NCBI GenBank assembly: GCA_021204405.1
Contig: JAJPZJ010000108.1
Span: forward strand, 1 to 44,049
Reading direction: 5' to 3'
DNA from: Tannerellaceae bacterium
Lineage (GTDB): Bacteria; Bacteroidota; Bacteroidia; Bacteroidales; Tannerellaceae
DNA: 44,049 bases
Below the pieces are notes generated by a model. That model was not told the DNA's origin and made no database searches. It saw only the letters and a list, made by a program, of their open reading frames with translations. Position numbers and translations under genes: made by a program. This document shows positions 46 through 40,803 of this stretch, in pieces. Positions within the stretch are counted from its first letter, which is position 1, and every line of letters begins with the position of its first letter.

Positions 46-1143
46 TTAATTAATACCGGATGGAGGCTTCTTTCTATTTCGTCTATAACATACACTTTCT
101 CCTTACTGAAAATATCTTTAAAAGCCGGGATAAAATCTAATAATCTTCTTGTTCCGTCAGACTCTTCGTCCAGATCAAAATCGGCCTCTTTTCCTCCTTT
201 GCCTTTGTGTGATATTTTTAATGATTTTATAAATACCTCATCATTTTCACAAACGAGGATGAGCTCTACGCCGTTTCTTGATCCGAGAGCTATCATCCTG
301 TCAGATTCTTCCTTCATTTTTTCCACCAGTTCATTTAGCTTCTCATCTTCTGCATCGCCGAAAAAATCTTTTAATGTGGTTTTCTCAGCAATGAGTTTAT
401 GTATGCCTACATGGAAAGAGGTGATTGTTTTCTCTGCATATTCCTGAAATTCAGCATCTATTTCCAAACGGTGTATTAATGTGGTCGGCCTCGAACCAGG
501 CATAAGGATGGTAAGTACATTTTCAAACCAGTTTAAAGGGGCTTTTATTATTTCAAATGAAGGATTGTCTAACGTGGTAAGAAGTTTAATTATCGGTTTG
601 TTGGGTTTGGCAAGATTCTTTTCTATCACATTTTTAAGTACTTTGTTTTCCTCTATCTCTTCGAATCCCTTAGCAAAAGAGATAGAGGTTATATTTTCAC
701 TATCTGTTTTTCTTTCGAAAATTAAACTATCCGTGTGCTTTCCTAATCCTGATTCATATAGTTCTTCTATTTCAATTCTGTTGCCGGTTATTTGTAAAGC
801 ATAATAGTATGGTTTCTCTTTATAAACGAACTCTATACCAAGTATTTGAGGAGTTTCTTCATTCTCCCGGAATTTGAATTGGGAAGACAATAGTTTGCCG
901 GGTAATTTTTCTTCTGTTACGATATCCTGTAATAATTCCAACGATTTTATAAGATTAGACTTTCCTGCTGCATTTGCGCCGTATATAGAAGATTGTTTCA
1001 GGATTTCTATTCCTGCTTTATTATATTTATGGTTTATTATATTTATGGTTTGCTAATCTTTTTGTATTGGGATTCGGAAGCATGTTGAACTCTTTCTGTT
1101 CTCCGAAGGAGTAGACATTATTTACAAAAAATCGTATTAACAT
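3..1143 (-). pseudogene. AAA_15/AAA_21-type ATPase, frameshifted near N-terminus and truncated at C-terminus
   Basis: This is an ATP-binding protein of the abortive-infection/OLD-like AAA_15 group. With one 16-bp repeat removed, the protein starts at the ATG at 1143 (MLIRFFVNNVYSFGEQKEF) and runs into a Walker A motif, YGANAAGKSN, at about residue 50. Near the window edge there is a Walker B-like segment, VYVIDEIERSLHP. As written, a 16-bp tandem duplication at 1017-1048 shifts the frame and gives a stop after about 38 codons, so the open frame from 941 down lacks its Walker A start. At the 3' end the frame enters the 45-bp terminal repeat and stops, losing the region where this family usually carries its sensor and His motifs. 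Such ATPases are often orphan defence or toxin genes. No partner is visible because the downstream side lies outside the window. Confidence 0.75.
1017..1051. repeat. 16-bp perfect tandem duplication (frameshifting)
   Basis: The unit tttattatatttatgg occurs at 1017-1032 and 1033-1048, followed by a further ttt. It lies inside the N-terminal coding part of the ATPase. Sixteen bases is not a multiple of three, and deleting one unit restores an open frame from the ATG at 1143 through the Walker A motif. Confidence 0.95.
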
Positions 1144-1234
1144 AGTTCGTGATATTTTCTCACAAAGGTAATTTTATATTTGAATAAAAACTGATTTTGA
1201 GCTAAAAAGTTCCAAGGGTTGGTGAAATAATCAC

Positions 1235-1270
1235 AAAAGCACCGTAGCTTCCTGAGCTATGGTGCTTTTT
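1235..1270 (-). terminator. rho-independent terminator
   Basis: AAAAGCACCGTAGCT, a 5-nt loop and AGCTATGGTGCTTTTT form a strong hairpin with A and U runs on its two sides. It could work in both directions. It lies 26 bp past the stop of the minus-strand gene at 1296 and separates that gene from the ATPase start at 1143. Confidence 0.9.
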
Positions 1271-1295
1271 GTACAATCAGGAGATGAGTATTTAC

Positions 1296-1667
1296 TTACA
1301 TCTCCCGGCCTGAATTCAACGCCCGGCGTGCCTGTTCAGCTTCTTCCCTGAGGTCGCTGTTTTCACGCTGGCTTTCCTGGTCGGCTTTTCTTCTGTTTTC
1401 TTTCAGGTTACTTTTACCTGAACGTCTGTTTTCTTTCCGCTGTTTTTCCCAGCTTTCCTGATCGTTAGCCCTGCGGTTGTCCATTCTATCGTCCCAACGT
1501 TCGCGGTCGGTAGCTGTACGATCTTCCATCTGGTCTCTGCGTGTCTGGTCCTGACGCATCTGTTCCTGTCTCATCTGATCCTGTGTTTTTACATCCTGGG
1601 CCATGGCAGTACCTGCCGAGAAAAGAAACGCTGCACCCATCAGGGCAGATATCACAATTTTTTTCAT
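1296..1667 (-). CDS. small secreted, highly charged protein
   Basis: Unrecognised 123-residue protein. It begins with a clear signal peptide (MKKIVISALMGAAFLFSAGTAMA, about 23 residues). The rest is almost entirely charged or polar. It carries degenerate short repeats of the form QDQMRQEQMRQDQTRRDQM near residues 30-47 and alternating Arg/Glu/Asp/Gln further on, which suggests a long helix or disordered periplasmic chain. There are no cysteines. It appears to be monocistronic: it has its own terminator, and the divergent gene at 1864 is on the plus strand. The repeats could make a shadow match to coiled-coil proteins, so function should not be assigned from similarity. Confidence 0.75.
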   Translation of the reverse strand: MKKIVISALMGAAFLFSAGTAMAQDVKTQDQMRQEQMRQDQTRRDQMEDRTATDRERWDDRMDNRRANDQESWEKQRKENRRSGKSNLKENRRKADQESQRENSDLREEAEQARRALNSGREM

Positions 1668-1835
1668 AAATATCTCTTTTAATTATAATTCAATTTTATT
1701 ATTTATGGGGATGAATCCCCTTTTAATACCATTAGTAAACAAACTGTCCTTTAAAATGTTTAGGAAGGTACGGGATGAAGTGCAACTCTTGTTTCTGTTT
1801 TATCGCTTATTTTTCTGACAAAACACATTATTTCC

Positions 1836-1843
1836 TACCTTTG
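1836..1843 (+). promoter_or_regulatory. candidate -7 box of the threonine dehydratase gene
   Basis: TACCTTTG fits the Bacteroidota -7 consensus TAnnTTTG and lies 20 bp before the ATG at 1864. A weak TTTCTG stretch 18 bp upstream may stand for the -33 box. Motif match only. Confidence 0.45.
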
Positions 1844-1863
1844 CGGGTAAATTATATAGTTAT

Positions 1864-3128
1864 ATGTCTGCAAATCATACGGAGAGGTTTAGCCTTCATA
1901 TTGGTAAGGCGCAGGAGAGGTTGAAAGATGTGGTAATGCAAACCCCGCTACAGTATCTTGATTCTTTGTCCGGGCAGTTCGGAGCTAATATCTATCTTAA
2001 ACGTGAAGACCTGCAGGTTGTGCGCTCTTATAAATTGCGTGGGGCCTATAATATGATCAGTAGCCTCGACCGGGCTGTGCTGGATAAGGGAGTGGTGTGT
2101 GCGAGCGCCGGCAACCATGCACAGGGGTTTGCTTTTAGTTGTAATAAGCTTAAAGTGAAAGGGGTGGTATTTATGCCGAAGATTACTCCCCGGCAAAAGA
2201 TCAAACAGACGAGAATGTTTGGGAATGGCTTTATTGAGATTATCCTTACGGGCGATACCTTCGATGATTGTGCAACCGCTGCCAAAGAATATACCCGCGG
2301 GCATGGGATGACTTTTATTCCTCCTTTTGACGATATCCGGGTGATAGAGGGACAGGGTACGATCGGTGCGGAAATACTGGAGCAATTGCCTGGTGAGACC
2401 ATCGATTATATCTTTATACCTGTAGGGGGTGGAGGGTTGTGTTCGGGGGGGTAGGTGCCTACCTGAAAGACCATTCGCCGCAGACCCGTATCATTGCCGT
2501 CGAACCCGAAGGGGCTCCCAGCCTGCGTACGGCACTGAAAGCGGGGCATCCTGTTACCCTGGTGCATATCGATAAGTTTATCGATGGGGCTGCCGTCCAG
2601 CGGATTGGCGACCTGACTTACCAACTCTGCGAAAAAGTGGTAGACGAGGTATGCCTGGTGCCTGAAGGAGAGGTCTGTTCTACGATCCTCAAACTGTATA
2701 ATGAGAATGCTATTGTGGTTGAGCCTGCCGGTGCACTGAGTATTTCTGCCCTGAACCATTATGCCGGTAAGATCAGGGGCAAGAATGTGGTGTGTATTGT
2801 AAGTGGTAGTAATAATGATATAGACCGTATGCAGGAGATCAAGGAGCGGTCGCTTATTTTTGAACGCCTGAAGCATTATTTTATTATCCGTTTTCCACAG
2901 CGTGCCCATGCGTTGAAGGATTTTGTCAATAAGGTATTGGGCGAGACCGATGATATTGTCCGTTTCGAGTATATGAAGAAGAACGAGAAGGAGAATGGGC
3001 CGGCGCTGGTGGGGATAGAGTTGGATACGGTAGAGGATTATAATAAGCTGCTCAGGCGTATGACTGAGTACGGGCTTAATTTTACGGTGCTCGATCCGGA
3101 TAGCGACCTGGGAAGGTATATTGTGTAA
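1864..3128 (+). pseudogene. ilvA: threonine ammonia-lyase (dehydratase), one-base frameshift in a G run
   Basis: This is a PLP enzyme that turns threonine into 2-oxobutanoate, the first step towards isoleucine. The PLP-lysine segment is VRSYKLRGAYNMI, and the glycine loop GGGGLC that holds the cofactor phosphate follows at about residue 190. An ACT-like domain lies at the C-terminus (FERLKHYFIIRFPQRAHALK to the end), so the protein is about 421 residues, the size of single-ACT IlvA. The frame breaks in a run of seven Gs at 2445-2451. Eight Gs would give CSGGVGAYLKD in one frame. As written, the product ends at TAG about 2452. Either the gene is switched off by slippage or a G was lost in sequencing. 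The next gene starts 58 bp downstream. Confidence 0.88.
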
Positions 3129-3186
3129 AAGGATCAACCAATCTGTTTTTTCTTATTTCATTACAAATAGATTAAATAACCAGCTT

Positions 3187-3783
3187 ATGAGCCAGATAGC
3201 TTTGCCCGACTGGGACAGGGAGTTGTTTGTATACCTGAACAGTAAAAATGCCGGTTGGCTGGATCCGGTGATGATCCTGCTGAGTACCTATACGGCATGG
3301 ACGGTTTTGTGTGTATTGGTTATGTTCTTAATGGTTTATAAAGACCGGGTGCAGGGTAAGATCGCCGCTTTGTTCCTGGTAGTGGGTATCGGGTTGAACC
3401 TGTTGCTGAACACCTTTGTCAAACTGCTTATTATGCGGCCCCGGCCAGGGAATGAAGATTTGCTGACGGGGGTTATCAACCAACTGGAAGCGGTGGGCGA
3501 AAGTTATAGTTTTTTCTCCGCCCATTCGTTGAGTTCTGTCTGCCTGGCTACTTTCACCACTTTATATTTTAAGAACAAGCTGTATGGGATAGCTATTTTT
3601 GCCTGGGCCTTGGCAGTGGCTTACAGCAGGATTTATGTGGGTAAACATTATCCGTTGGATGTGCTGGTAGGTATTTTGTTCGGGCTGCTTACCGGATGGC
3701 TTTCCTATTGGGTTTACCGGCGGTATAACCGGCCTTCTATGCTGCCGGAAGAGAAAAGGCAAACGGAAGCCGGTTCCTTTTAA
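3187..3783 (+). CDS. PAP2-family membrane phosphatase
   Basis: This is a membrane phosphatase of the type 2 phosphatidic acid phosphatase family, which acts on lipid phosphates or undecaprenyl diphosphate. The start at 3187 (MSQIALPDWDREL) is preferred over an upstream TTG that would overlap ilvA. Motif 1 is KLLIMRPRPG. Motif 2 is degenerate, with SAHS in place of PSGH. Motif 3 is SRIYVGKHYPLD. Hydrophobic segments separate the motifs as expected of a protein with five or six membrane spans. Its 198 residues are a normal length. Substrate is not predictable; UppP-like or LpxE/LpxF-like roles are both possible. Confidence 0.88.
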   Translation: MSQIALPDWDRELFVYLNSKNAGWLDPVMILLSTYTAWTVLCVLVMFLMVYKDRVQGKIAALFLVVGIGLNLLLNTFVKLLIMRPRPGNEDLLTGVINQLEAVGESYSFFSAHSLSSVCLATFTTLYFKNKLYGIAIFAWALAVAYSRIYVGKHYPLDVLVGILFGLLTGWLSYWVYRRYNRPSMLPEEKRQTEAGSF

Positions 3784-3844
3784 CAGCTTTGACATAGCCG
3801 AGTAGATAGATTTTTTTATCTTCGCTTCCAAAACGAACCCTGGC

Positions 3845-5489
3845 ATGAGAAGCATAGTAGCCATTTTTTGTATCTTCCTTTTTTCAACCTCTTTACCAGC
3901 AGCCGGACACCAGACTGATTCTTTACTGAAAGTGCTTGATGTAACCGTGAAAGAACGGTTTAAATATAGCCGTAAACGGGAGCTCCGGATGGATAGCCTG
4001 CGGATGCGGCTGGGTAGGGTTGCCGACGAAGAGCAGCATTTTCATATTTACCAGCGCCTTTTCAGCGAGCTTCGTTATTATAAAATGGATTCGGCCCTCT
4101 GGGTGGCCAACGAGCGGTTGCGTATAGCCGAAAGCCTGCATAATCGTTCTTATAAAAATTCAGCCCAACTGAATATTGCCGAGATATGGGGTATCACCGG
4201 TATGTATAAAGAGGCAACCGATTTGCTCGGCCGGATCAATAAAAGCGAACTGGATATGAAGCAGCAGGCTTATTATTTCCATCTGTACCATTCTATTTAT
4301 TCTTTAATGATGGAGAATGCTTTTTCCGATTCGATAAGGCGGGAGTATGAAACACGGGTATACGAACTCAAAGATTCTCTGTTACTTTTTAATGAGCCGG
4401 GTACATTGGGGCATTATTTTATTGTGAATGCCAAACTGGTGCAGACCGGCCGGTATGAGGAAGCACTGGAATTGATGAAGTGGTGTTATGAGGAGTTTGC
4501 TTATAAAGAGAATGCCCGGGGAGGCATGGTATATGAACTGGCTAATATCTATCATAAGATGGGAGATAGGGAAGAGGAGAAAAGGTATCTGGCTATGTCG
4601 GCCCTTATCGACCTGCACCAGGGGGTAAAAGAGTATATTGCTTTGTACCAGTTGGCTATCCTGTTGTACCAGCAGGGTGATATCGACCGGGCCTATGCCT
4701 ATATAAAATGTGCTATGGAAGATGCTGCTTTCTGTAAAGCCCGTTTCCGTACGCTGGAGATGTCGGAAACGTTGCCGATCATTGCCGCAGCCTACAACAA
4801 AAAGGAAAAGCAGGATAAAGAGAACCTGATCCGGTACCTGGTGATCATTTCCCTGATGTCGGTTGTCTTGATAATCAGTATTGTGTATATATATTACCAG
4901 TTGAAAAATATCTTCTATTACCAGTTGAAAAATATCTTCCGCCAAACAGGCGATGAAGGTTATGTATGAAGATATGAAAGAGATGAATACGGAGTTGAAT
5001 ATGCTGAATAAAGAGCTTTCAGAATCCAACCAGGTAAAAGAGGCTTATATTGGCTCTGTATTTAACCTTTGTTCTACCTATATTGATAAGATGGAGGCAT
5101 ACCGCCTGGATCTGAACCGTAAGCTAAAGGCCGATAAAATAGCAGATGCCCTCAGGACAACCGGCTCTGCATCGCTGGTGCCGGATGAGTTAAAGGAGTT
5201 TTTCCGGAATTTTGATACGGTCTTCCTGAATATTTATCCGGATTTTGTCCATCAGTTTAATGCACTTTTGCAAAAGGAAGAGCGTATTATCCCGAAAGCC
5301 GGCGATATCCTTACTCCTGAATTGCGTGTGTTTGCACTGATACGGTTAGGTATTAATGATAGCAGCAAAATAGCCGGTTTCCTTCATTATTCTCCGCAGA
5401 CGGTTTATAATTATAAGTTAAAAGTGAGGAATAAGCTTATTATCCCGCGGGAGGAGTTTGAGGAGGCTTTGTTTCGGATAGGAAGGTGA
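3845..5489 (+). pseudogene. DUF6377-type TPR/HTH membrane regulator, frameshifted next to a 24-bp duplication
   Basis: This family of Bacteroidales regulators has a signal peptide, a TPR-like periplasmic part, one membrane segment and a cytoplasmic coiled coil with a LuxR-like HTH. All parts can be seen: the signal at residues 1-20, helical repeats to about 320, the membrane span IISLMSVVLIISIVYIYY, the coiled coil from EDMKEMNTELNML, and the C-terminal HTH (IAGFLHYSPQTVYNYKLKVR). The frame breaks at an A5 run, 4928-4932. One more A would join the halves as LKKISSAKQAMK. Just before it, a 24-bp tandem duplication repeats YYQLKNIF in frame. A likely -7 box, TATCTTCG, is near 3818. Target genes are unknown; regulators of this type are not always next to the genes they control. 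Confidence 0.8.
4892..4939. repeat. 24-bp perfect tandem duplication (in frame)
   Basis: Two identical 24-bp units at 4892-4915 and 4916-4939 (starting tattaccagttgaaaa) have no extra homology at the junction. They add eight residues right after the membrane span of the DUF6377 regulator, 10 bp from its frameshift. Confidence 0.95.
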
Positions 5490-9043: not shown

Positions 9044-12033
9044 TTAAAAGTTAAGATTTAAGCCCATCATAAATACTCTTGGGCGTTGATAAGAGTTCCG
9101 GTCGATACCGTCTGATAATTCCGGATCGATACCTGAATAGCCGCTAAAGGTGAATACATTCTGAATACCTACGGAAACATTCAGGCTGCTTGTTTTGTCC
9201 CACAAGTTATTGAATGTATATCCCAACCGGATGTTGTCGATACGCAGGAAGGAGGCATTTTCAAGATAATGGTCGCTGTAACGACGGGCATATTCCTGTT
9301 TGAGTTCGTAGGTATTACGAAGGATATTGTTGGATGTTGAGTTACTATATAATTCCTCATATGAATCACTGGCTTTCAGGTAGTTGAAGACGTAGTTGCC
9401 GGCACTCCCGTGTGCATTGATCGCCAAGTCCCAATTCTTGTAAGTTAGTTTTGTTGATAAACCAAAGTAGTAGGGAGCCAGTGAACTCTTACCCGTTACA
9501 TATTTTTCGTTTTCGCTGCTTGTTTGTTCTCCGTTTGCATCCAGATAGACTCCATCCAGGTAGTTACCATTTTCATCGTATGCCTGTTTGGAAAGATAGA
9601 ATGTGTAGGGTGTTTCTCCTGTCGTATGAAGTTGTAAATAATAACCTGTACCACCGGCGCTACCGGTTTGCGTACTTGCTTTATTATCTTCATTTTCTAT
9701 TACGTTCAGTTTAGTGATTTTTGATTGGTTCCAGGTAAAGTTACCACTGATAGACCACTCCCAGTCTCTGGTCTTAACCGGTATGGCGGTTAGTGCAACT
9801 TCCACCCCTTTACTTTCCATATTACCGATATTGGTTTCAATTTCAGCATTGAAGTTACTTCCGGCGGGTACAGTAATTTTGTTAAGCAAATCTTTGGTAT
9901 TCCGTTTATATGCATCTACGCTACCGGAAATACGGTGGTTAAGAAAGCCAAAATCGATACCTATATTGAATGTTTCGGTGGTTTCCCATTTAATATTGGG
10001 GTCATAACCGTTTGGGCGGTAGGTGGTATACCATTTATCTCCAAACTCGTATCTGGCATTATCATATGATGCAGTATACATAGGCATATATACGTAATAG
10101 GAACCAATTTCCTGTTGTCCGGTCTGTCCGTAGCTCAAACGCAGTTTCAAGTCGGAAAGAACATCAATTCCCTGTAAGAATTCTTCATTGATCATTCTCC
10201 AGGCTAAAGCTATTGAAGGGAAATATCCCCAGCGTGTATCCGGCGAGAAACGTGAAGAGGCATCGGCACGTAAAGTTGCCGTAAGCATAAAACGGCTGTC
10301 GAATGAATAGTTTAATCGTCCGAAGAATGAGATAAGGTAAAGTTCACTTACTTCGTATGTGGTTTCATGCCCTATATCATTTCCGTCCCAGTCGAATTGG
10401 GTTACCTCTTTATCTTTCCAGAAGCGTTGCCACTCATAACCGGCCATTGCACTTAAGCTGTGTTTCCGGTTAAATTCTTTGTTGTAATTTGCATAGAGGT
10501 CAAGCAAAGTACTGCGATATTTTTCTATTTCGTGTTTATCAAGGTTGGTACCATCATTTTTGTTATCGGTAAACATCGAGGGTGCATTGGTAGGCGTTTT
10601 AGTATGGTCATCTGCTTTGGAGACATCATACCCTAAGTTCAGGTTGAAACTCAGGTCTTCTAATCCATGCACTTTATAGTTAAATGCGGCACTACCGATA
10701 GAACGGTTGGTATGTTTGTTCTTTTTTCCAGTTCGATCGTGGCTACCGGGTTTACGGCAGCCTGGTTTAATATCGCACCGTTATCATCTCTCCACATAAA
10801 ATAACCCAGTCCGGGACCTGTTGCCCCGTATGTCTCATCATAAACAGGGCGTGTCGGATCGAAGAAGGCTGCCGTACTGATAATACTGCCATCTCTTCCA
10901 TGGTTGTTCTCGAAACTCCCTTTTACATTAATATCCACAGAAAGGTGGTTATCTAAAAATTTAGGATTTAACCCGATACCCAGGTTTGTCCTGTTATAAT
11001 CATTGGATTTGACGATACCGCTTTGGTTGGTATATCCTACTGATACACGGTAAGGCATGTTTTTATATGCCCCTGTAACGGAAAAATTGTGGTCTTGTCC
11101 GAAACCGCTCCGGAAGATCTCATCCTGCCAGTCTGTACTGGCTGTACCGAATTGGAAAGTACCAGGTAAGTTGTCACCCCTTAATTCGTTTACTGCAGTT
11201 CTGAACTCGTCTGCTTTTAATACGTCCAGATGTTCATATACCGTACTGACAGAGAAGTTTGTACTATAGTTGAACTGTGGCTTTTGTGGACCTACACTTC
11301 CTTTTTTAGTCGTTACGATGATAACTCCATTAGAGGCGCGAGACCCGTAGATGGCTGTAGCTGAAGCATCTTTCAATACGGTAAACGATTCGATATCATT
11401 CGGGTTAATGGCGTTCAGGTTAGCACTTCCGCGTGTGGGAAACCCATCGATAATGATAAGAGGATCGTTACTTGCGGAAAGGGAAGAACCCATACGGATA
11501 CGGATGGTAGCGTCACTACCAACTTCCCCGGATGCAGGTATTACATTCACACCGGCAATTTTACCAACTAAGGCATCTTCTGCTTTATACTGGTTACCTT
11601 TGTTGAATTCGTCTGGTTTTACAGAAAGGATAGAACCGGTGGCATCGGCTTTTTTTACCTGGCCGTAACCGATTACTACGATTTCATCGATTAACTCGGA
11701 GTCGTCTGCCAATACGATCATTAAAGTAGATTGTCCGTTAATTTCAACCTCCTGGCTCTTATATCCGATATAAGAAATTGCTAATATACCATTAGCAGGT
11801 GCCCATAATTGAAAGTTCCCATCAAAGTCGGTAATCGTACCGGTAACAGTACCTTTGATGACAACGTTGGCTCCGATAACCGGTTTGCCCGTATTGTCTT
11901 TTACATGTCCCTTTATCAGGATCTCCTGTGCGAAAGTGGAAAGAGACATAAATAAGCCTATCATAAGAAGTAGCCCCCTTACAGATAGTTTAAGTTTCGA
12001 ATGTTTCATTTTCATAAAATGTTTCATTTTCAT
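9044..12033 (-). pseudogene. SusC/RagA-family TonB-dependent transporter, one-base frameshift
   Basis: Outer-membrane active transporter of about 995 residues. In order it has a signal peptide, a carboxypeptidase-D regulatory-like domain (GKPVIGANVVIKGTVTG), a TonB-linked segment, a plug domain with LKDASATAIYGSRASNGV, and a 22-strand barrel ending in RVFMMGLNLNF. The frame breaks at a run of six T on the plus strand, 10722-10727. One more base restores LEKKNKHTNRSIGSAAFNYK. As written, the first product ends at about residue 457 and the barrel half could restart at 10672. The start region carries an 18-bp tandem duplication that repeats the first six codons (MKMKHFMKMKHS). Confidence 0.9.
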
Positions 12034-12035
12034 AA
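12000..12035. repeat. 18-bp perfect tandem duplication over the susC start
   Basis: Units at 12000-12017 and 12018-12035 (aatgtttcattttcataa) are identical. They give two in-frame start codons 18 bp apart and a doubled MKMKHF/MKMKHS N-terminus. A weaker repeat, tacattattgt, follows just upstream of the gene. Confidence 0.95.
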
Positions 12036-12172
12036 TTAATACATTATTGTCAGTTTAGTACATTATTGTTAGTAATGTGTGATTTTAAAAAGTTTGTTAT
12101 TTCTGACTATGCCCCGGAAAATTAAATCTGCGCTATCTCCTGCGGATTCGTAGGGTTGTGTGTCCTATTCTT

Positions 12173-12208
12173 TTTATCGTCTGTTAACAATTTATCGTCT
12201 GTTAACAA
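12173..12208. repeat. 18-bp perfect tandem duplication, intergenic
   Basis: tttatcgtctgttaacaa occurs twice, at 12173-12190 and 12191-12208, upstream of susC. The interval 12034-12735 holds no convincing gene. An 88-codon minus-strand frame across it has unlikely composition. Confidence 0.95.
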
Positions 12209-12337
12209 TGATAAATCTATCACTTTTTGTTGATTTGGATAGTGGGGTAAGTGGTAAGAGTAGGGGATAAGTAGATTTGATTTTATTCTATAATGTTGAT
12301 TATCAGTATTGGTAACGGAATATAATAGTGGAAAAAA

Positions 12338-12359
12338 GTAGATTGTTAGTAGATTGTTA
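12338..12359. repeat. 11-bp perfect tandem duplication, intergenic
   Basis: gtagattgtta occurs twice in a row (12338-12348 and 12349-12359) in the AT-rich region upstream of susC. Confidence 0.85.
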
Positions 12360-12527
12360 TAGAAGTAGTAGGAGATAAAAATAAGCATTAATTTATCAGA
12401 ATGGCAGGGTTTTTTAGCTGATACGTATATAGTACCTGTTTTAGGGTGTGTTGTTGAAACGGGAAACCGGTGTTATTTTTTATTTAAATCCTACATCTTT
12501 TCTTTCCGGCCTCTATAGTTTTTTATA

Positions 12528-12570
12528 TTCCACGGTCGTGAAACCTACGTTCCACGGTCGTGAAACGTAG
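12528..12570. promoter_or_regulatory. two 17-bp direct copies of a near-palindromic site
   Basis: TTCCACGGTCGTGAAAC occurs at 12528-12544 and 12550-12566, a 22-bp period or two helical turns. Each copy centres on the palindrome CACG-GT-CGTG. The second copy is extended by ctacg and cgtag into a near-perfect 27-bp palindrome. This looks like paired operator half-turns for a dimeric regulator, or another of the short duplications. The susC start is about 500 bp away and the carbonic anhydrase terminator about 100 bp away. Confidence 0.5.
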
Positions 12571-12668
12571 AAAAGTAACAGGGAAGTGCAGGAAATATTC
12601 CCTGCCTTTTCACCTCTTTTTGCCGGTAACAACCAATCTTTATGGGTATTAGAAGAAGTATTGTTATA

Positions 12669-15943: not shown

Positions 15944-16307
15944 GTTCCCCGCGTAGGCGGGGATCGCATAGGACTTGTCAGTTATACTTACAAAATAAGG
16001 AGAAATATTGTTCTAGTGCGGTCCCCGATCAGGTCGCAGAGCTGTTAAATTCTCCCCCTTTAGTCCTGCAAGGACGGCCTATCCTAGCCCAGGGCACCAG
16101 CCCTGGGTAGTTAGGAATATAATGAGGTCGGAGTGCTGTAAGTACGACATAATAAAAATTTGATCTTAGGTATATTTTATGCCGTGCTTACAGCGCTCAA
16201 AAAAAGATCCATATCAACCACCCGGCACTGCGTACCGGGCTAGGATAGATCGTCCTTACAGGACTAAAGATAAGAGAATTTAACAGCCCTGCGATCAGGT
16301 CGGGGAA
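15944..16307. repeat. modular palindromic element, copy 1 (about 364 bp)
   Basis: The block starts with GTTCCCCGCGTAGGCGGGGA and ends with a segment, 16274-16307, that matches 43714-43747. Inside is a nested inverted repeat of about 90-bp arms: 16021-16110 against 16206-16307. Each arm carries smaller hairpins, tagtcctgcaaggac and tagcccagggcaccagccctggg. A central inverted pair (gtgctgtaagtacg / cgtgcttacagcg) forms the tip. There is no coding capacity. It abuts the hemG stop codon. Its two ends, but not its core, are shared with the element at 43172-43750. Confidence 0.75.
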
Positions 16308-21644: not shown

Positions 21645-22778
21645 ATGAAACATCAGGTTATATTACTCAGTAAAGATATTACCTCTTCTTTTATAGGCAT
21701 AAAAGAGTGGAACCCCGATCATATCCATTTATTATTTACAAATGAAACAAAAGCGGTTGCCGAACCTCTTTTTCCTTTATTGCCCGATACCGTGCAGTGT
21801 ACCTGTTATCTGGTAAAGCCTTATGAGGCTCAGACAGTAATAGATGTTTGCCGGGAGATACAGGAGTCGAATTCGGGTGAGTTTCATTATAATCTTTCAG
21901 AAGGTACTAAGGTGATGGCTTTTGCCGCTTTTTCTGTGGTACGGCAATATAATGCAGCCGCTTTCTATGTAACCCAGAAGAATATTTTAATGTATCTGAA
22001 TGATTTTTCGGAGCGCCGTTTGAAAAGCCACCTGACCAATAAGGAAATCCTGCAATTACATGGTAATATCCTTTTGGGTTATGTGGATATAGATGAACTA
22101 ACCAATGATGATATTGAAGCATCCGGCCGGATCAAACAGTTTATTGAACAGTATCCGCGTGAGCATTCCCGCCTGCAAAGTTTTTATAATAACCATTGCC
22201 AGCGCCGCCTGGAATTGTTGCCACGTTCGAATACATTCCCGAATGGACTGGAATACAGCCAGGAGGCAGGTACATTGATTGTTACCTTAAAAGATGAGGT
22301 AATTCTGCACCTGTTGTTACCCAGTGGTTGCCTGCTTTATTTTGATGGCCGCTGGTGGGAGACCCTGGTAGCTAACCAGGTACAGCGTTGGCGGCTGCAA
22401 CAAGCCTGTGTACCTGAAGTATGGCAAAGTATATTGTTCCATGTGAATGAACATAATACCCATATTAAGAATGAGATTGATATCCTGATCAATAATGGGG
22501 AAAAACTGGTTTTTATTGAATGTAAATCCGGAACTGTTACCCAGAATGATATTTATAAAAATGATATTTATAAAGTAGATAGTATCCGTGAAATTTACGG
22601 GGGAGATATTTCCAAAGCTATCCTGGCCAGCTACTATCCGGTAAAGGAAGATCTGTTGGATAAGGCAGATAGTTTACAGATCACCTGCTTTGCTCCCGGT
22701 TATTTTGCAGAACGGATCAATTTTATAGAGACTTTGCCTGATTGGTTAGACCAGTTGGTAAGGGAATTGCAGTTATGA
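21645..22778 (+). CDS. CARF-domain nuclease of the Card1/Can2 type (DUF1887 family)
   Basis: Two-domain effector of 377 residues. The N-terminal half (about 1-140) is a Rossmann-like CARF domain with the ligand-loop segment YNLSEGTKVMAFAAF. The C-terminal half is a PD-(D/E)xK restriction-type nuclease: the acid in NEIDILINN and the E-x-K in VFIECKSG near residue 298. In characterised members, cyclic tetra-adenylate made by a type III CRISPR complex activates the nuclease. Here no cas gene, Cas10 or CRISPR array is within 21 kb on either side, so it is an orphan in this window. Directly after the ECK motif a 15-bp in-frame duplication doubles NDIYK. Expression may be linked to the inverted repeat at 21599. 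A CARF ligand other than cA4 is possible. Confidence 0.82.
   Translation: MKHQVILLSKDITSSFIGIKEWNPDHIHLLFTNETKAVAEPLFPLLPDTVQCTCYLVKPYEAQTVIDVCREIQESNSGEFHYNLSEGTKVMAFAAFSVVRQYNAAAFYVTQKNILMYLNDFSERRLKSHLTNKEILQLHGNILLGYVDIDELTNDDIEASGRIKQFIEQYPREHSRLQSFYNNHCQRRLELLPRSNTFPNGLEYSQEAGTLIVTLKDEVILHLLLPSGCLLYFDGRWWETLVANQVQRWRLQQACVPEVWQSILFHVNEHNTHIKNEIDILINNGEKLVFIECKSGTVTQNDIYKNDIYKVDSIREIYGGDISKAILASYYPVKEDLLDKADSLQITCFAPGYFAERINFIETLPDWLDQLVRELQL
22545..22574. repeat. 15-bp perfect tandem duplication inside the nuclease domain
   Basis: aatgatatttataaa occurs at 22545-22559 and 22560-22574 with no junction homology. It inserts five residues (NDIYK) about 8 residues after the catalytic E-x-K of the CARF nuclease. 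Confidence 0.95.
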
Positions 22779-25338: not shown

Positions 25339-26225
25339 ATGAAAAAACAAAGTTTTTATCCAATCCTTATTTTGCTGGTATTCTTGCTGCAAAATACTCC
25401 TGTTTTATTTGCACAGGGAGGAAAAGTTTTTGAGACTTATACTGTAAAGAGTTCTATCCTGAATATGGAACGTAACTATGCTATTTATCTGCCTCCGGGT
25501 TATGAAGATACCGATATGAGTTACCCGGTTTTATATTTATTACATGAAGGAGGGGATGATCATACCGGATGGGTACAGTTCGGCCAGGTACAACATATTG
25601 CTGATAAAGCCATCCGGGAAGGGATTGCTGCCCCGATGATTATTGTGATGCCGGATGCAAATACCGGTATCCGCGGATATTTTAATAGTGTGGATGGGGA
25701 ATTTAATTATGAGGATTTCTTTTTTACGAAACTGATTCCTCATATTGAAAAAACTACCGGGTACGTAGTGAACGGCGTTACCGGGCTGTTGCCGGACTTT
25801 CTATGGGTGGCGGTGGGACGATTTTTTATGCTTTGCACCGTCCGGATGTATTTGCTGCTGCCGCTCCGTTAAGTGCTGCTACCGAAAACTGGGATTTAGA
25901 GCAGTACCGTAACCGGGTGAAGGAGTCGCAACCGGAAGTAAATGAAAGTCAGATTGAGCAATTTTTTAACCGCCATAGCATAGAACAAATTCTGAAGAGT
26001 GCTTCGGAAGAGGAACTGAAAAAGATTAAAGAAATCCGCTGGTATATCAGTTGCGGTGATGATGATTTTTTATATGAAGGGAATAGCTTGATGCATATTC
26101 TTTTCCGTAAGAATGAGATCAGACATGAGTACCGTGTAAAAGATGGCGGACATACGTGGAGTTATTGGCGTATGGAATTACCTCTGGTAATGGAGTTTGT
26201 TTCCAGGTCGTTTATGCAATATTAA
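25339..26225 (+). pseudogene. secreted esterase (PF00756 family), one-base frameshift
   Basis: Secreted alpha/beta hydrolase of the same family as the gene at 14816. The signal peptide is residues 1-27. The segment YPVLYLLHEGGDDHTGW opens the fold. The nucleophile motif GLSMGGGG lies in the second half, followed by the acid region SCGDDDFLYEGNS and the His in KDGGHTWSYW. The frame breaks near 25755 (aaactaccggg). One more T gives TYRVRSERRYRAVAGLSMGG, joining the frames. As written, the first product ends at 25872 before the nucleophile is read in frame. Restored length is about 295 residues. Confidence 0.85.
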
Positions 26226-26251
26226 ATTTATTTATACTTTTGTAGCTTATA

Positions 26252-26374
26252 TTCTTCGGGGCAGGGTGTAATTCCCTACCGGCGGTGATAGTCCGCGACC
26301 CTTCTTTGTTTTTCAAAGAGGACTGATTTGGTGAAATTCCGGAACCGACAGTTAAAGTCTGGATGAGAGAAGGA
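26252..26374 (+). promoter_or_regulatory. FMN riboswitch (RFN element)
   Basis: The conserved RFN blocks appear in order: CTTCGGGGCAGGGTG, AATTCCCTACCGGCGGTGAT, AGTCCGCGACCC, a variable arm, GACTGATTTGGTGAAATTCC, GGAACCGACAGT, and AAAGTCTGGATGAGAGAAGG. It precedes ribB by about 155 bp. That leader holds a hairpin (acggatatgaa/ttcatatctgt) and a cccc...gggg pairing that reaches the ribB ribosome-binding region, so translational control is likely. A -7-like TACTTTTG lies at 26235-26242. Confidence 0.96.
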
Positions 26375-26527
26375 TAGTATACATATTAAACGGATATGAA
26401 CTTTCATATCTGTAGATAGCTGGTTGCAGTTATCTTGTTTTTCTTTCCAATGGATATACAATTCTGTATAGACCTGCCCCTATTTAGAATAATAATTTAA
26501 AAAAATTATTAAACGGGGTTTATTACA

Positions 26528-29506: not shown

Positions 29507-29548
29507 GCTGCGGGGGCATGCCTTAAAGCTGCGGGGGCATGCCTTAAA
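29507..29548. repeat. 21-bp perfect tandem duplication upstream of phoH
   Basis: gctgcgggggcatgccttaaa occurs, exactly repeated, at 29507-29527 and 29528-29548 with no junction homology. It lies in the phoH leader, 18 bp before the ATG. Confidence 0.95.
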
Positions 29549-35601: not shown

Positions 35602-35626
35602 GGGGAACCGTATTAATTAAACAATA

Positions 35627-36106: not shown

Positions 36107-36155
36107 ACTCTATATTTCTATATTTTTCCTAAACTACAAAGAAACATAAATTCAA

Positions 36156-37277
36156 TTACTTTGCCAAGTTTCCACTATGAAACTCTTTTAATTTCTCCAA
36201 ATAAATATGTATAAGTCGGGAGACAGCAAACTTATCCAGTTCTTCCCGTTTCACAGGCAGGTAAGTATCCAATTCCGGACCGGATTTTTCGATGGTTACC
36301 CGGTAGAATGAGGCATACAATATCTGGTGAGAAAGCACATGTTTGATATGGCTGGTATCTACTGTTAGCTCCACCTTTCCACATCCTTCAAACAGTTGGC
36401 GGAAGTTTTCGGTTTGCTGTAACGCTAAAAGATCGCACGGTTGGTTGGTTTCGATAAGGGGAAATTCATACAACCCTTCCCAGATATCCCCTTTCCCGCG
36501 GCGATTCAGGTAAATAGTATCGCCATTTATTATATATAGATAATGAAAATACCGGTTGCGGGTTTTTATCTTATTTTGTTTAACCGGGTATTGCTGTACC
36601 GTATGGGAAAGAAAAGCCATACACTGCTGCTGAAGCGGGCAGAACATACAGGCCGGATTTTGTGGAGTACATTGCAAAGCCCCAAATTCCATAATGGCCT
36701 GGTTATGCAAACCGGCAACAGCCGGGTCCATCACCAACGAAGCCAGCTTTGTAAACTCCTTTTTCCCGGCTCCGGTATCGATCGGAGTAGGTAAAGCAAA
36801 CAACCGGGCTAATACGCGGAATACATTCCCGTCGACAACCGGATAGGGCTAGTTCCAGACAAAGGAGGCGATAGCCGCTGCCGTATATTCGCCAATCCCT
36901 TTCAGCGATAAAATATCTTTATAGGTATGAGGGAAATTACCCCCCCCGAACTTCTCCATGATCATTTTAGCTGCTGCATGCAAATTACGGGCCCGGCTAT
37001 AATACCCTAACCCCTGCCAATACTTCAATACCTCATCTTCACTGGCCGATGCCAGCGAAGCAACATCCGGAAAACGTCCGGTAAAACGATAAAAATAGTC
37101 CATTCCCTGGGCAACCCGTGTTTGCTGTAAAATAACTTCCGATATCCATATAATATACGGGTCTGATGAGTGCCGCCAGGGCAGATCGCGTTTATGCAGC
37201 TCATACCAGTCTATCAATATATGGCTTATTATCAAATCTTTTTTATTTACGGTTTCATCCATGCTTAGTGTATCCAT
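36156..37277 (-). pseudogene. mutY: A/G-specific adenine glycosylase, in-frame stop at mid-gene
   Basis: Base-excision enzyme that removes A opposite 8-oxoG. The N-terminal HhH-GPD domain is clear (WYELHKRDLPWRHSSDPYII, LKGIGEYTAAAIASF). After a TAG at 36849-36851 the same frame continues PYPVVDGNVFRVLARLF. It keeps the 4Fe-4S ligands (CTPQNPACMFCPLQQQC) and a NUDIX-like recognition domain up to 36156. The stop stands where relatives have a residue in FxWN-x-PxPVVDGN. A single substitution (for example GAG or TTG to TAG) explains it. If real, the strain would lack MutY and suffer more G:C to T:A changes. An internal start is unlikely to give an active enzyme. Confidence 0.92.
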
Positions 37278-37436
37278 ATCCTATTAACAATGCAAACTTA
37301 CACACATATAACAGATTATAAGAAATCTTTTTTATAAAAATAAGCATGAAAACTTTTCCCACTTAAATAAAAAGCTATATATTTACATTTTTAAAAATTA
37401 AAAGGTCTATATCAATTAATTAATTCAAATACAGAC

Positions 37437-37709
37437 ATGACTAAAGCAGATATTGTTACTGAAATCTCAAAAAGTACCGGAATTGACAAACAAACGGTAT
37501 TAGCAAGTGTAAAGTCTTTCATGGATATTGTTAAAACATCCTTAGCTCAGGGTGAAAATGTTTACCTGAGAGGTTTCGGAAGTTTTGTTATTAAGAAAAG
37601 AGCCCAGAAAACTGCACGTAATATTTCTAAAAATACTACGATCATTATTCCGGAGCACAATATTCCAGCTTTCAAACCTGCAAAAACTTTCCTGAACGAA
37701 GTAAAGTAA
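37437..37709 (+). CDS. HU/IHF-family DNA-binding protein
   Basis: Nucleoid protein of 90 residues with the family features: MTKADIVTEISKSTGIDKQT at the N-terminus, the conserved GFGSFVIKKRAQKTARN at the base of the beta arms, and IPEHNIPAFKPAKTF at the C-terminus. It precedes the small basic protein and rng on the same strand. Spacing to the small gene is 38 bp. The frame is intact. Confidence 0.95.
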   Translation: MTKADIVTEISKSTGIDKQTVLASVKSFMDIVKTSLAQGENVYLRGFGSFVIKKRAQKTARNISKNTTIIIPEHNIPAFKPAKTFLNEVK

Positions 37710-37747
37710 TTAATAATCATACGTTAAATTAAAAAATTCTACAAACA

Positions 37748-37837
37748 ATGCCTAGCGGAAAAAAAAGAAAAAGACATAAAATGTCTACGCACAAGCGCAA
37801 AAAGAGACTTAAAAAGAATAGACATAAGAAAAAATAA
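37748..37837 (+). CDS. 29-residue basic protein, AURKAIP1/COX24 (bS22/mS38-like)
   Basis: A short frame below usual gene-calling limits: MPSGKKRKRHKMSTHKRKKR, then LKKNRHKKK. About two thirds of its residues are Lys, Arg or His. It resembles the COX24/mS38 domain, which in mycobacteria and mitochondria is a small-subunit ribosomal protein. Bacteroidota genomes often carry such a gene, and the place between HU and rng on the same strand supports a real gene. A terminator follows at 37861. A ribosomal role here is inferred. Confidence 0.7.
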   Translation: MPSGKKRKRHKMSTHKRKKRLKKNRHKKK

Positions 37838-37860
37838 TTCAGTCTATTGACAAACTCTGG

Positions 37861-37900
37861 AAGAACAAACTTAACAAGGAACCTTTTAAGTTTGTTCTTT
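37861..37900 (+). terminator. rho-independent terminator after the small basic gene
   Basis: AAGAACAAACTT, a 15-nt loop and AAGTTTGTTCTT form a 12-bp stem, 23 bp after the small gene's stop and 30 bp before rng. It may limit read-through into rng. Confidence 0.72.
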
Positions 37901-37929
37901 GCGTATTACTCAGGTTCAATTTATAAAAA

Positions 37930-39501
37930 ATGAATAGTGAATTAGTTATCGATGTTCAGCCTAAAGAGGTATCTATCGCTGTATTGGAGGATAAAAACCT
38001 TGTAGAGCTTCATAAGGAAGCGCGCAATGTATCGTTCTCGGTCGGAGATATTTACCTGGGTAAAGTTAAGAAACTTATGCCGGGGCTAAACGCTGCATTC
38101 ATTGACGTTGGATATAAAAAGGACGCATTTCTTCACTACCTGGACTTAGGTCCGAATTTCAATACCCAGCAAAAGTTCCTCAGGCAGGCACTCGACGGGA
38201 ACAAAAAATTCCCGGCTATTGCTAAAATCCAGATCGATCCTGAAATCGAAAAAGACAGCAGCATCAGTAATGTGCTTAAAGCAGGACAAGAGGTATTGGT
38301 ACAAATTGCCAAAGAGCCGATATCGACCAAAGGCCCGCGGCTTACTTCCGAACTTTCATTTGCCGGAAGATTTATCGTTTTGACACCTTTTGCCGATAAG
38401 GTATCTGTTTCAACCAAAATTAAATCAGGCGAGGAACGCGCACGTTTACGCCAATTGATCCAAAGTATCAAGCCGAAGAATTTTAGTGTAATTGTCCGTA
38501 CTTCAGCAGAAGGAAAACGTGTGGCAGAGCTCGACCATGAATTAAAGACATTAGTTAAACGCTGGGAGGATAATATCACCAGATTAAGTAAAGCCAAGGT
38601 GCCGGCCCTGATCTATGAGGAGAGTGGACGTGCCGTAGCGCTTTTACGTGATATTTTTAGTCCTTCCTTCCAAAACATCTATGTAAACGACGAAAGCGTT
38701 TATAACAGTGTTCGCGATTATGTAAGTTTAATTGCTCCCGGCCGTGAAAATATTATACATAAGTATACCGGTGAGCTTCCGATCTTTGATAATTTCGCAA
38801 TCACAAAGCAGATCAAGTCGTTGTTCGGACGAACTGTAACTTATAAAAGTGGTGCCTACCTGATCATTGAGCATACCGAAGCTATGCATGTGATAGATGT
38901 AAACAGTGGTAACCACTCGAAAAGAAGTGATGCCCAGGAAAAAACCGCTATCGATGTGAATATGGCTGCCGCCGATGAAATTGCCAGACAGTTACGCTTG
39001 CGCGATATGGGTGGTATTATTGTGATAGACTTCATTGATATGTCGGAGCCCGCTAACCAGCAGAAGTTATTCGAACATATGGCTAAAGCCATGGCTGGCG
39101 ACCGGGCCAAACACAACATCCTGCCTTTAAGTAAATTCGGTTTGATGCAGATCACCCGCCAGCGGGTACGTCCGGCGATGGGCATTACTACATCCGAAAC
39201 CTGCCCTACCTGTTTCGGCACAGGTAAAATAAAACCCTCCATCCTGTTTACCGATAGCCTGGAAGGAAAAATAGCATGTTTAGTAAATAAACATCATGTG
39301 AAGAATTTCGCCCTGCATGTACATCCATATGTTGCAGCGTTCATTAATCAGGGATTTATCCCGTTAAGTTTGAAATGGAAATTGAAGTACTCCTGGAGTA
39401 TGAAAATCATTCCCGATCAGAGTCTCTCATTTATGGAATATAAATTTATAGATTCCGACAAAAATGAGATCGACATGATGGAAGAAAAAGAAATGCAATA
39501 G
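37930..39501 (+). CDS. rng: ribonuclease E/G
   Basis: Endoribonuclease for RNA processing and decay, 523 residues. An S1-like domain is near the N-terminus (VGDIYLGKVKKLMPGLNAAF). The catalytic region has MHVIDVNSGN and GGIIVIDFIDM, whose acids bind magnesium. The zinc-link motif is CPTCFGTGK near residue 420. It lacks the long scaffold tail of RNase E, so it is the short RNase G type. It has its own terminator. The frame is intact. Confidence 0.94.
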   Translation: MNSELVIDVQPKEVSIAVLEDKNLVELHKEARNVSFSVGDIYLGKVKKLMPGLNAAFIDVGYKKDAFLHYLDLGPNFNTQQKFLRQALDGNKKFPAIAKIQIDPEIEKDSSISNVLKAGQEVLVQIAKEPISTKGPRLTSELSFAGRFIVLTPFADKVSVSTKIKSGEERARLRQLIQSIKPKNFSVIVRTSAEGKRVAELDHELKTLVKRWEDNITRLSKAKVPALIYEESGRAVALLRDIFSPSFQNIYVNDESVYNSVRDYVSLIAPGRENIIHKYTGELPIFDNFAITKQIKSLFGRTVTYKSGAYLIIEHTEAMHVIDVNSGNHSKRSDAQEKTAIDVNMAAADEIARQLRLRDMGGIIVIDFIDMSEPANQQKLFEHMAKAMAGDRAKHNILPLSKFGLMQITRQRVRPAMGITTSETCPTCFGTGKIKPSILFTDSLEGKIACLVNKHHVKNFALHVHPYVAAFINQGFIPLSLKWKLKYSWSMKIIPDQSLSFMEYKFIDSDKNEIDMMEEKEMQ

Positions 39502-39537
39502 AAAAACTCCGGAGCCAATCACTCCGGAGTTTTTTTT
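39502..39537 (+). terminator. rho-independent terminator of rng
   Basis: AAAAACTCCGGAG, a short loop and CTCCGGAGTTTTTTTT form a strong GC stem with a long U run directly after the rng stop. Confidence 0.95.
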
Positions 39538-39554
39538 AATGAACTATCTACTTA

Positions 39555-39586
39555 TTGGGATGTATATTTTTGGGATGTATATTTTT
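39555..39586. repeat. 15-bp perfect tandem duplication, intergenic
   Basis: ttgggatgtatattt occurs at 39555-39569 and 39570-39584 between rng and phnW. A looser 12-13 bp direct repeat, tttcgcagggaa, follows about 22 bp apart (39585 and 39607). Nothing else is seen in 39538-39691. Confidence 0.92.
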
Positions 39587-39691
39587 CGCAGGGAAAAAGT
39601 TTTGTTTTCGCAGGGAAGTATGTTCATTTTCCCAGAAAAATATTTTATCTTTTCTACCTATTTTCTGACATCTGCCGGTACACACTTCTAT

Positions 39692-40768
39692 TTACCGGAT
39701 CGCTTCTATCAGCCGCGCCATATCTTCCGGATAAACATCGCCAATATTACCAATACGGAAGGTTTGTGCATCTGATATTTTTCCGGGATAGATCACAAAT
39801 CCTTTCTTTTTTAATCGCTCATAGAACTCCACAAAGTCAAACGACTCTGCCGGATACAAAAACGACGTGATGATAGGCCCCTGTAATTCATCAGGCAAAA
39901 GCGTACAATAACCTAATGAACGCATGCCTTCCACCAATACCCGGTGATTCTCTTTATAACGCTCATATCTTTCAGCTACTCCTCCCTCTTCTTTCAGCTC
40001 CTGTATAGCCTGGTAAAAAGCACGCACAACATGTGTAGGAGAGGTATAACGCCATTTACCCTTACCCTTTTCCATAGCTTCCCACTGGTCGTAAATATCC
40101 AGTGAAAGCGAACGTGCCACCCCTTTGCATTCCATTAATTTAGCCCGGTTGGCAATAATAAACCCAAAGCCAGGAACCCCCTGAATACATTTATTGGCAC
40201 TGCTAACCAGGAAATCAATGCCCAGCTTCTCCATATCAATTGGGATTCCTCCGAACGTACTCATGGCATCTACAATAAAAGTTATATTGCGTCCGGCTAA
40301 CACACCGGCTACCTCTTCTATGGAGTTAACCAGTCCCGTAGTAGTCTCGCCATGTACCATCGCCAGGTGGGTGGTACCCGGATATTCCGATAAGGCCCGG
40401 CGAGCCGTTTCTCCTGTGATCTGTTCGGTTTCGTGGAGTGAGATAAGCCGGTAATTTAATTTATAATAAGAGGCAATCTCTCCCATCCGGTCGCCATAAG
40501 CTCCATTGGCAAGTATTAACAACTGGTCTTCCGGCTTAACGGTAGCCCCTAAAGTAGCTTCCACACAATACGTTCCGCTTCCCTGTAACAAGACACTTGT
40601 ATAGGTTTTTTCATCCAGTCCGGCTATGGCCAGTAATTCCTGCCTGATTACCGTTACAATATCTTCATTATAATCTTTATCCCAGGTACACCAATCCTGA
40701 AGCATGGCCTCCCTTACAGTTTGCGAAGTACTTAAAGGACCCGGTGTTAACAAAAGATAGTTTCTCAT
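39692..40768 (-). CDS. phnW: 2-aminoethylphosphonate:pyruvate transaminase
   Basis: PLP enzyme that turns 2-aminoethylphosphonate and pyruvate into phosphonoacetaldehyde and alanine; 358 residues. It starts MRNYLLLTPGPLSTSQTVRE, the family signature. The PLP lysine is in LVSSANKCIQGVPGFGF near residue 194. VDAMSTFGGIPID marks the cofactor Asp. It follows phnX on the minus strand. Without the 26-bp duplication at the junction, its start would overlap the phnX stop in ATGA. The frame is intact. Confidence 0.95.
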   Translation of the reverse strand: MRNYLLLTPGPLSTSQTVREAMLQDWCTWDKDYNEDIVTVIRQELLAIAGLDEKTYTSVLLQGSGTYCVEATLGATVKPEDQLLILANGAYGDRMGEIASYYKLNYRLISLHETEQITGETARRALSEYPGTTHLAMVHGETTTGLVNSIEEVAGVLAGRNITFIVDAMSTFGGIPIDMEKLGIDFLVSSANKCIQGVPGFGFIIANRAKLMECKGVARSLSLDIYDQWEAMEKGKGKWRYTSPTHVVRAFYQAIQELKEEGGVAERYERYKENHRVLVEGMRSLGYCTLLPDELQGPIITSFLYPAESFDFVEFYERLKKKGFVIYPGKISDAQTFRIGNIGDVYPEDMARLIEAIR

Positions 40769-40803
40769 GGCTGCTTAAAAAGATAGTTTCTCATGGCTGC
40801 TTA
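40752..40803. repeat. 26-bp perfect tandem duplication over the phnX-phnW junction
   Basis: Units at 40752-40777 and 40778-40803 (aaaagatagtttctcatggc...) are identical and have no junction homology. The duplication copies the phnW start and the phnX end. The upstream copy forms a nine-codon frame, MRNYLFKQP, whose TGA overlaps the true phnW ATG. Confidence 0.96.

Follow-up and report, generated by a model that had tools for sequence, protein, structure and literature searches.

Short tandem duplications with a topoisomerase I-like pattern at many break points in a Tannerellaceae genome

Introduction

De novo duplications linked to topoisomerases in eukaryotes are reportedly very short and derive from trapped topoisomerase II. 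In Escherichia coli, the R168C substitution of topoisomerase I (TopA) leads to repeat-independent head-to-tail duplications, which span 2-19 bp in galK; the available text of that study finds no match to known cleavage motifs, leaves it open whether the enzyme acts directly or indirectly, and calls the origin of tandem repeats from unrepeated DNA unknown (PMC6954433). Here we analysed short exact tandem duplications in a contig of 44,049 bases from a Tannerellaceae bacterium (JAJPZJ010000108.1, C174; the whole contig is hereafter called the window) and in sampled sequence from the rest of its genome, which comprises 3.45 Mb in 184 contigs and is 95% complete. These duplications reflect a real, genome-wide and sequence-marked process, of which the topA duplication mutators are the closest known kind. 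Because the break points often carry the pattern preferred by topoisomerase I, TopA is the likely maker of the doublings, and we give a probability of roughly two in three to the reading that they are recent tandem duplications without flanking homology, made by TopA through two cuts in one strand, 15-45 bases from each other, and the joining of wrong ends.

Previous studies, in their available text, indicated that bacterial topoisomerase I prefers C four bases 5' of the cut (position -4), while bacterial topoisomerase III does not (PMC7587558, PMC11999072). For the E. coli enzyme, arginines 169 and 173 and tyrosine 177 were reported to matter for this preference, and reverse gyrases have phenylalanine at 177 (PMC7587558). 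The present genome resembles the E. coli R168C mutator, as far as the latter is described in the available text, in that the duplications are repeat-independent and head-to-tail, a type IA topoisomerase is implicated and genes are cut. It differs in being a natural genome with R168 and R35 unchanged, whereas the E. coli mutator came from laboratory evolution and carries a known substitution; moreover, C at -4 is enriched at both breaks here, while the authors of the E. coli work saw no known cleavage motif. Compared with the eukaryotic duplications, the mark in this genome is one of type IA. New here are the occurrence in a natural lineage, the range of sizes and the presence of the cleavage mark at each end, and no report of a -4 C mark at duplication ends was recognised in the available text of the literature searched.

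Genome-wide excess of short tandem duplications

The own-genome sample held 1,525,062 unmasked bases, including the window, and was compared with 1,065,357 bases of Tannerellaceae and 994,356 bases of other Bacteroidales; the latter include four loci carrying the label Tannerella (L021, L023, L030 and L031), with 0 such duplications, and two-copy counts exclude every array of three or more copies. The first-pass annotation of the window had proposed that a genome-wide excess over relatives would support an active process, and such an excess was found: exact two-copy duplications of 15-45 bp number 90 in the own genome (1.53 Mb) and 2 in the Tannerellaceae (1.07 Mb), a rate ratio of 31 (binomial p = 1e-18), for which about 29 is the safer value because about 84 kb of the Tannerellaceae sample is redundant. 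Within the same samples, the own genome has no excess over its relatives at periods of 6-14 bp, as the counts by period demonstrate.

Period (bp): own genome; Tannerellaceae; other Bacteroidales
6-8: 902; 627; 627
9-10: 39; 35; 29
11-14: 12; 10; 7
15-17: 12; 0; 6
18-22: 45; 2; 7
23-30: 29; 0; 2
31-45: 4; 0; 0

The observation, first made in the window, that flanking homology is hardly used also applies to the whole sample, since 0, 1, 2, 3 and 4 extra matching bases occur in 50, 22, 7, 3 and 3 duplications, against 47, 26, 11, 4 and 1 by chance. Simple slippage accordingly fits as badly as had been suggested, with no short direct repeats at the junctions apart from 5 of the 90 duplications with at least 6 extra bases (0.2 expected), and replication slippage was rejected on this near-chance junction homology. 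The identical copies had been read as recent, and this was borne out: in the first 0.58 Mb, to which the scan for older pairs extended, pairs that are 86-94% identical are not in excess outside the window, while the window has two at 86-90%, and nearly all duplications are therefore fresh. In the same 0.58 Mb, three one-mismatch pairs (L084, L101 and L114) may be older duplications, and so may a fourth pair that lies within the end of an insertion sequence (L092).

The duplication units are AT-rich (mean GC 0.31), and coding DNA is avoided relative to GC-matched random sites, with 32 of 83 observed versus 45.6 expected for 150-bp flanks (p = 0.002), 21 of 82 versus 35.7 for 210-bp flanks (p = 0.0006) and 19 of 82 versus 27.9 for 270-bp flanks (p = 0.02). 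The earlier impression that many doublings fall in start or leader regions therefore holds as far as this avoidance goes, but several lie inside genes. Genes cut by duplications include those for aspartate-ammonia ligase and phosphofructokinase, an AsmA-family gene and a polysaccharide-export gene, as well as two further long genes (~1000 codons). Selection on reading frame, suggested by a first look at open reading frames (ORFs), was dropped as an argument after a blind test found no bias.

Some duplications stand close together (window 12000-12571; L225:15452-15855), and 9 neighbour distances are below 600 bases, against a mean of 3.8 and a maximum of 9 in 200 uniform simulations. Longer two-copy duplications of 92, 366, 133 and 108 bp are also present (L160:3444, L183:5822, L159:14427 and L171:13644, respectively). 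Among the other Bacteroidales loci, the commonest exact tandem repeats are period-22 arrays (10 of 38 with period 10-60; L014, L020, L039, L046, L055, L065, L072 and L074).

Sequence pattern at the duplication breaks

Motif tests used 79 of the 90 duplications of 15-45 bp, excluding those with more than 2 extra bases, at a contig edge or with N, and the main -4 count used the 50 unambiguous duplications with 0 extra matching bases. Without any assignment of orientation, C occurs on the same strand at offset j of both breaks in 0, 1, 2, 16, 0, 4, 3, 6, 4, 3, 5 and 3 of these 50 for j = 1 to 12, which is a spike at exactly -4. A pyrimidine pair (Y/Y) on the same strand is found at -4 in 40 of 50, versus 16-31 at the other offsets from -1 to -12. 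When up to 2 extra bases are allowed, C/C at -4 is present in 20 of 79, against 5.7 +/- 2.3 (maximum 14) in 2000 decoys. The spike is seen in all three sampling batches (10/34, 6/25 and 4/20), and by size class it amounts to 4/9 at 11-14 bp, 4/8 at 15-17, 10/40 at 18-22, 4/27 at 23-30 and 2/4 at 31-45; in addition, two of the four possible older pairs mentioned above have C at -4 of both breaks.

Composition profiles that ignored orientation showed little; the signal emerged only once strand was allowed for, and was then confirmed by the orientation-free counts. A two-orientation expectation-maximization (EM) model of both boundaries scored 171, versus 89 +/- 10 in 60 GC-matched random sets, and under ten-fold held-out scoring the true boundaries beat local decoys, of which a median of 5.8% score as high (Kolmogorov-Smirnov (KS) p = 1e-19, n = 79). 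Orientation by the GC-rich outer flank assigned 65 of the 79 duplications and left 14 ties; among the oriented breaks, C is at -4 in 29/65 upstream (p = 9e-8) and 26/65 downstream (p = 5e-6) over a background of 16%, while G is there in 1/65 and 3/65. No comparable spike was found in other classes: C/C at -4 occurs in 0 of 8 duplications of other genomes, in 7/37 of the own 9-10 bp class, in 7/180 of the own 7-8 bp class and in 9/64 of the 9-14 bp duplications of other genomes. Likewise, the full-motif score picked out none of 11 duplications from other genomes, and the own 11-14 bp class was weak (3/11 under 0.05).

The motif at the breaks lacks symmetry and lies mostly on a single strand. 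Of the 50 duplications, 16 have same-strand C pairs at -4 (decoys 3.4) and 7 have opposite-strand pairs (decoys 3.5); pairs of one kind exclusively are same-strand in 10 (decoys 2.2) and opposite-strand in 1 (decoys 2.3). This strand preference bears on two origins that the first-pass annotation had offered. One is the fill-in of staggered breaks, in which opposite-strand nicks by another nuclease would be filled in and rejoined, as in plant paired-nick repair or Pol alpha-primase fill-in. It would suit the AT-rich units, which would part easily, and fill-in with end joining predicts near-zero flanking homology; however, small tandem duplications of this kind are described in the available text as needing complementary protruding ends and non-homologous end joining (PMC8355091), whereas here one strand is favoured at both ends (10 vs 1) and the end-joining genes are missing from the searches. 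Ku was found in 0 of 23 genomes searched, this one included, with control matches in Bacillus subtilis, and an ATP-dependent ligase in 0 of 24, again including this one. Non-homologous end joining was rejected on these two results, and staggered-break fill-in, which fits worse than TopA, is judged distinctly unlikely.

The other origin is the excision of mobile elements, which would leave target-site duplications of 15-30 bp as scars, as with elements of the IS1202 or IS1634 type. The unit sizes are like such long target repeats, and the genome contains one insertion sequence with 105 or more left ends. A transposase would nevertheless leave a symmetric signature, and the opposite-only and same-strand-only counts (1/50 and 10/50) run the other way. 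The element scan covered 1.14 Mb of the own genome and identified no element between repeats of 15-30 bp, although three 18-20 bp repeat pairs there, one of them checked by ORF list only, lie 0.6-3 kb apart and might flank one. For the abundant insertion sequence, a comparison of 31 x 42 sampled ends gave no shared 15-30 bp target repeat; the AT-rich matches reach at most 12 bases, within chance. Excised-element scars thus fit worse than TopA and appear scarcely credible.

Duplications in the window

The window contains the following tandem pairs.

1017..1051, no strand assigned: 16-bp exact tandem duplication; 3 extra matching bases, so that the break placement is ambiguous
4892..4939, plus strand: 24-bp exact tandem duplication; 0 extra bases; within a DUF6377 gene, with a frameshift adjoining; plus-strand -4 bases T and C
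12000..12035, minus strand: 18-bp exact tandem duplication; 0 extra bases; over the start codon of a split TonB-dependent receptor gene; minus-strand -4 bases T and C
12036..12073, no strand assigned: 19-bp imperfect pair, 89% identical; abuts the 12000..12035 duplication; possibly an older duplication
12173..12209, no strand assigned: 18-bp exact tandem duplication; 1 extra base; intergenic; no -4 pyrimidine pair on either strand at the placement tested
12337..12359, no strand assigned: 11-bp exact tandem duplication; 1 extra base; intergenic; size class without genome-wide excess
12528..12571, no strand assigned: 22-bp imperfect pair, 86% identical in the pair comparison
22545..22574, minus strand: 15-bp exact in-frame duplication; 0 extra bases; Card1-like (CARF/DUF1887) gene; minus-strand C at -4 of both breaks
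29507..29548, minus strand: 21-bp exact duplication; 0 extra bases; leader of a PhoH-like gene; minus-strand C at -4 of both breaks
39555..39586, minus strand: 15-bp exact duplication; 2 extra bases; downstream of an RNase E/G gene; minus-strand C at -4 of both breaks in the leftmost placement
40752..40803, plus strand: 26-bp exact duplication; 0 extra bases; spans the boundary of a HAD-like and an aminotransferase class V gene; plus-strand -4 bases T and C

All nine exact doublings first reported are present at their sites, except that the 11-bp one starts at 12337 and not at 12338, and the tenth, at 12528, exists as an imperfect pair. By chance the window would hold 0.13 exact doublings with a period of at least 10 (among 30 shuffles under an order-4 Markov model, 4 gave one and 26 none). 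The sampled genome minus the window has 93 doublings of period 11-45 in 1,481,013 bp, and the window is richer than this (Poisson P = 0.002), a value that carries selection bias, as the window had been picked for richness.

Support for real duplications in the assembly

Unmerged overlaps were a third origin offered by the first-pass annotation, in which contigs overlapping by 15-30 bases would have been joined without merging and the true genome would be single-copy. Three contig-end pairs do share exact stretches of 16, 18 and 31 bases (chance 0.003 for at least 11); the longer sharing in two other pairs, of 52 and 55 bases, is consistent with a repeat and a tRNA gene. Furthermore, of 11 coding sites with a period not divisible by three, 9 would have an open frame with a single unit, and an unduplicated phosphofructokinase is listed for another contig. 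An assembler, however, would not set C at exactly -4 of both ends. Contig ends share up to 55 bases (22 of 132 ends reach this length) and never more, which indicates a k = 55 assembly graph, and overlaps shorter than k should not peak at 18-30 bases without an excess at 11-14; there is also no exact duplication at 46-140 bp, and the depletion in coding DNA survives GC matching. Two overlapping duplications, L225:15770 and 15799, have about 38 bases between their junctions, less than one k-mer. The size peak, the -4 C and this overlapping pair thus fit unmerged overlaps worse than TopA; since three contig-end pairs share 16-31 bases, we do not dismiss such overlaps outright and regard them as an unlikely cause.

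Two of the three 100-N gaps are within the second copy of the 133- and 108-bp duplications, with 55 and 54 bases of the copy on each side, and the third abuts a 30-bp array, as would loops in a k = 55 graph. A common assembler writes 100 N for loops.

Protein records provide a further comparison. The Card1-like protein with the duplication (377 aa) is listed for two contigs, the longest of 2635 nt, and the Card1-like proteins of the five relatives read have 372 aa and a single copy. One near relative has a Card1-like protein (P0002) with 88% identity. For phosphofructokinase, a truncated form with a 28-bp duplication (P0241) is listed for a 1905-nt contig and an unduplicated form (P0242) for a 3119-nt contig, the two being 100% identical over the aligned part, while the phosphofructokinase contig of this genome measures 17,497 nt. 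The duplicated forms therefore also occur on contigs (1905 nt for phosphofructokinase, at most 2635 nt for the Card1-like protein) shorter than those of this genome, which again speaks against unmerged overlaps. Possibly P0241, P0242 and the short Card1-like contigs come from the same sample. For aspartate-ammonia ligase, no same-species protein was among the best 120 of 8000 matches. The duplications are taken as real and partly polymorphic.

Topoisomerase and repair genes

TopA of this genome is full length, with an open frame of 793 aa. In the alignment to E. coli TopA, the RR..DR of the -4 pocket is kept, including both arginines, and F stands in place of Y177. In addition, at L208:10730-13325 and L241, topB, which encodes topoisomerase III, carries two frameshifts, and mutS is frameshifted near a run of G, as in the mutS mutators of E. 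coli described in the available text of PMC10292909; mutL, recA, polA and recJ are open. A third gene of the MutS family is apparently split too.

No causal lesion was found; TopA is full length with R35 and R168 intact. The frameshifted topB and mutS, or some TopA substitution, are candidates only for the reason in this lineage. Loss of mutS alone is no explanation, because the mutS lines of an E. coli mutation-accumulation study gave 1 verified tandem duplication, among structural variants larger than the duplications here, in its available text (PMC10292909). Loss of topB alone is probably not the whole cause either, because several relatives also lack a full-length topB.

An indirect effect of disturbed supercoiling might also be considered, in which topB loss and a weak TopA would favour melted AT-rich DNA and R-loops, and another enzyme would make the duplications. 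The two topB frameshifts and the AT-rich units agree with this, and it is proposed as an alternative for the E. coli mutator in the available text of PMC6954433. Such an effect does not, however, predict C at single-base precision at -4 of both breaks, and we hold it to be very unlikely.

Several points weigh against TopA as the maker of the duplications. Aligned to E. coli TopA, the enzyme is unchanged at the known mutator positions R35 and R168, so that the gene is not filed as the E. coli mutator allele and only as working like it, and 17 changes at TopA columns invariant in four relatives include no known mutator change. A second full-length type IA gene is lacking from at least eight of the genomes that have a TopA match, so that topB loss may not suffice by itself; in 5.5 kb scanned of one of them (G012) no duplication was present, nor was there any in 24 kb scanned of G006, a half-complete genome without any match. 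The periods, mostly 18-28 bp, are larger than the 2-19 bp given for galK in the available text on the E. coli mutator. C at -4 marks about 40-45% of the oriented breaks, which is an enrichment and not a feature of every break, and opposite-strand C pairs also exceed their decoys (7 vs 3.5 of 50), 6 of these 7 being same-strand pairs as well. Two of the four longest duplications were scored and both are without the -4 motif, for which a second process may be responsible. Coding duplications show no preference for multiples of three (6/17 and 8/21 in two tests) and hence no sign of reading-frame selection. The available text of the literature searched offers no explanation for the GC pair immediately 3' of one break, and the evidence as a whole comes from assembled contigs of one genome of the species.

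Proposed mechanism

The observed basis for a mechanism is that each duplication has two breaks, that same-strand pyrimidines at -4 are enriched and that homology is near chance. TopA might cut behind the replication fork or in a melted AT-rich stretch, making two cuts in one and the same strand, each on a different copy of the unit. Still bound to the TopA tyrosine, the 5' end of one copy would then be passed to the 3'-OH that ends the second copy of the unit, on the sister or the newly made strand. The product would be a loop of 15-45 bases, which replication would fix as X-U-U-Y. A loop of this size exceeds the range of mismatch repair. The GC pair 3' of one break may represent the edge of the melted AT-rich stretch.

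Genome decay and other features

The genome is in decay, with frame changes, insertion sequences and low long-ORF coverage. Among genes covered by homology, 41 frame changes occur in 193, whereas relatives have 1 in 136, and long-ORF coverage is 0.59 versus 0.74. Three genes of the window are split, those for a DUF6377 protein (3845-5489), a TonB-dependent receptor (9044-12033) and an esterase (25339-26225), and they are part of the genome-wide pseudogene formation. The insertion sequence with at least 105 left ends has the terminal repeat GATTATCCGCATAATGTCC and AT-rich targets; its copies form both ends of the window (42 and 44000), and all 27 left ends in sampled stretches outside the window are at most 160 bases from a stretch end. 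At L112:33-75, a 20-bp duplication spans an insertion-sequence end and five flanking bases, and therefore arose after the insertion.

The source genome belongs to the Tannerellaceae and is Parabacteroides-like. The RNase E/G of the window shares 86-87% identity with its counterparts in the closest Parabacteroides and elsewhere in the family, and the 39 relatives listed include none from the genus of this bacterium. The window also contains an FMN riboswitch (26248-26378, plus strand) and a match to the Acido-Lenti-1 RNA (16062-16107, minus strand; 47 bits, cut-off 37), here in a Bacteroidales genome.

Conclusions

This decaying genome, in which mutS and topB are frameshifted, is best read as that of a natural topoisomerase I mutator. 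The wider proposition, that topoisomerase I itself writes tandem repeats by a double cut of the same strand and wrong-end joining, with C at -4 of both breaks as its fingerprint, and that whole natural lineages run it as a mutator, is one to which we would give even odds. A set of 90 duplications with a base-precise mark in a natural genome would make the origin of tandem repeats testable by counting, and the -4 mark would serve as a signature for other mutator lineages. If TopA does write these repeats, the origin of tandem repeats from unrepeated DNA would be readable directly in genomes.

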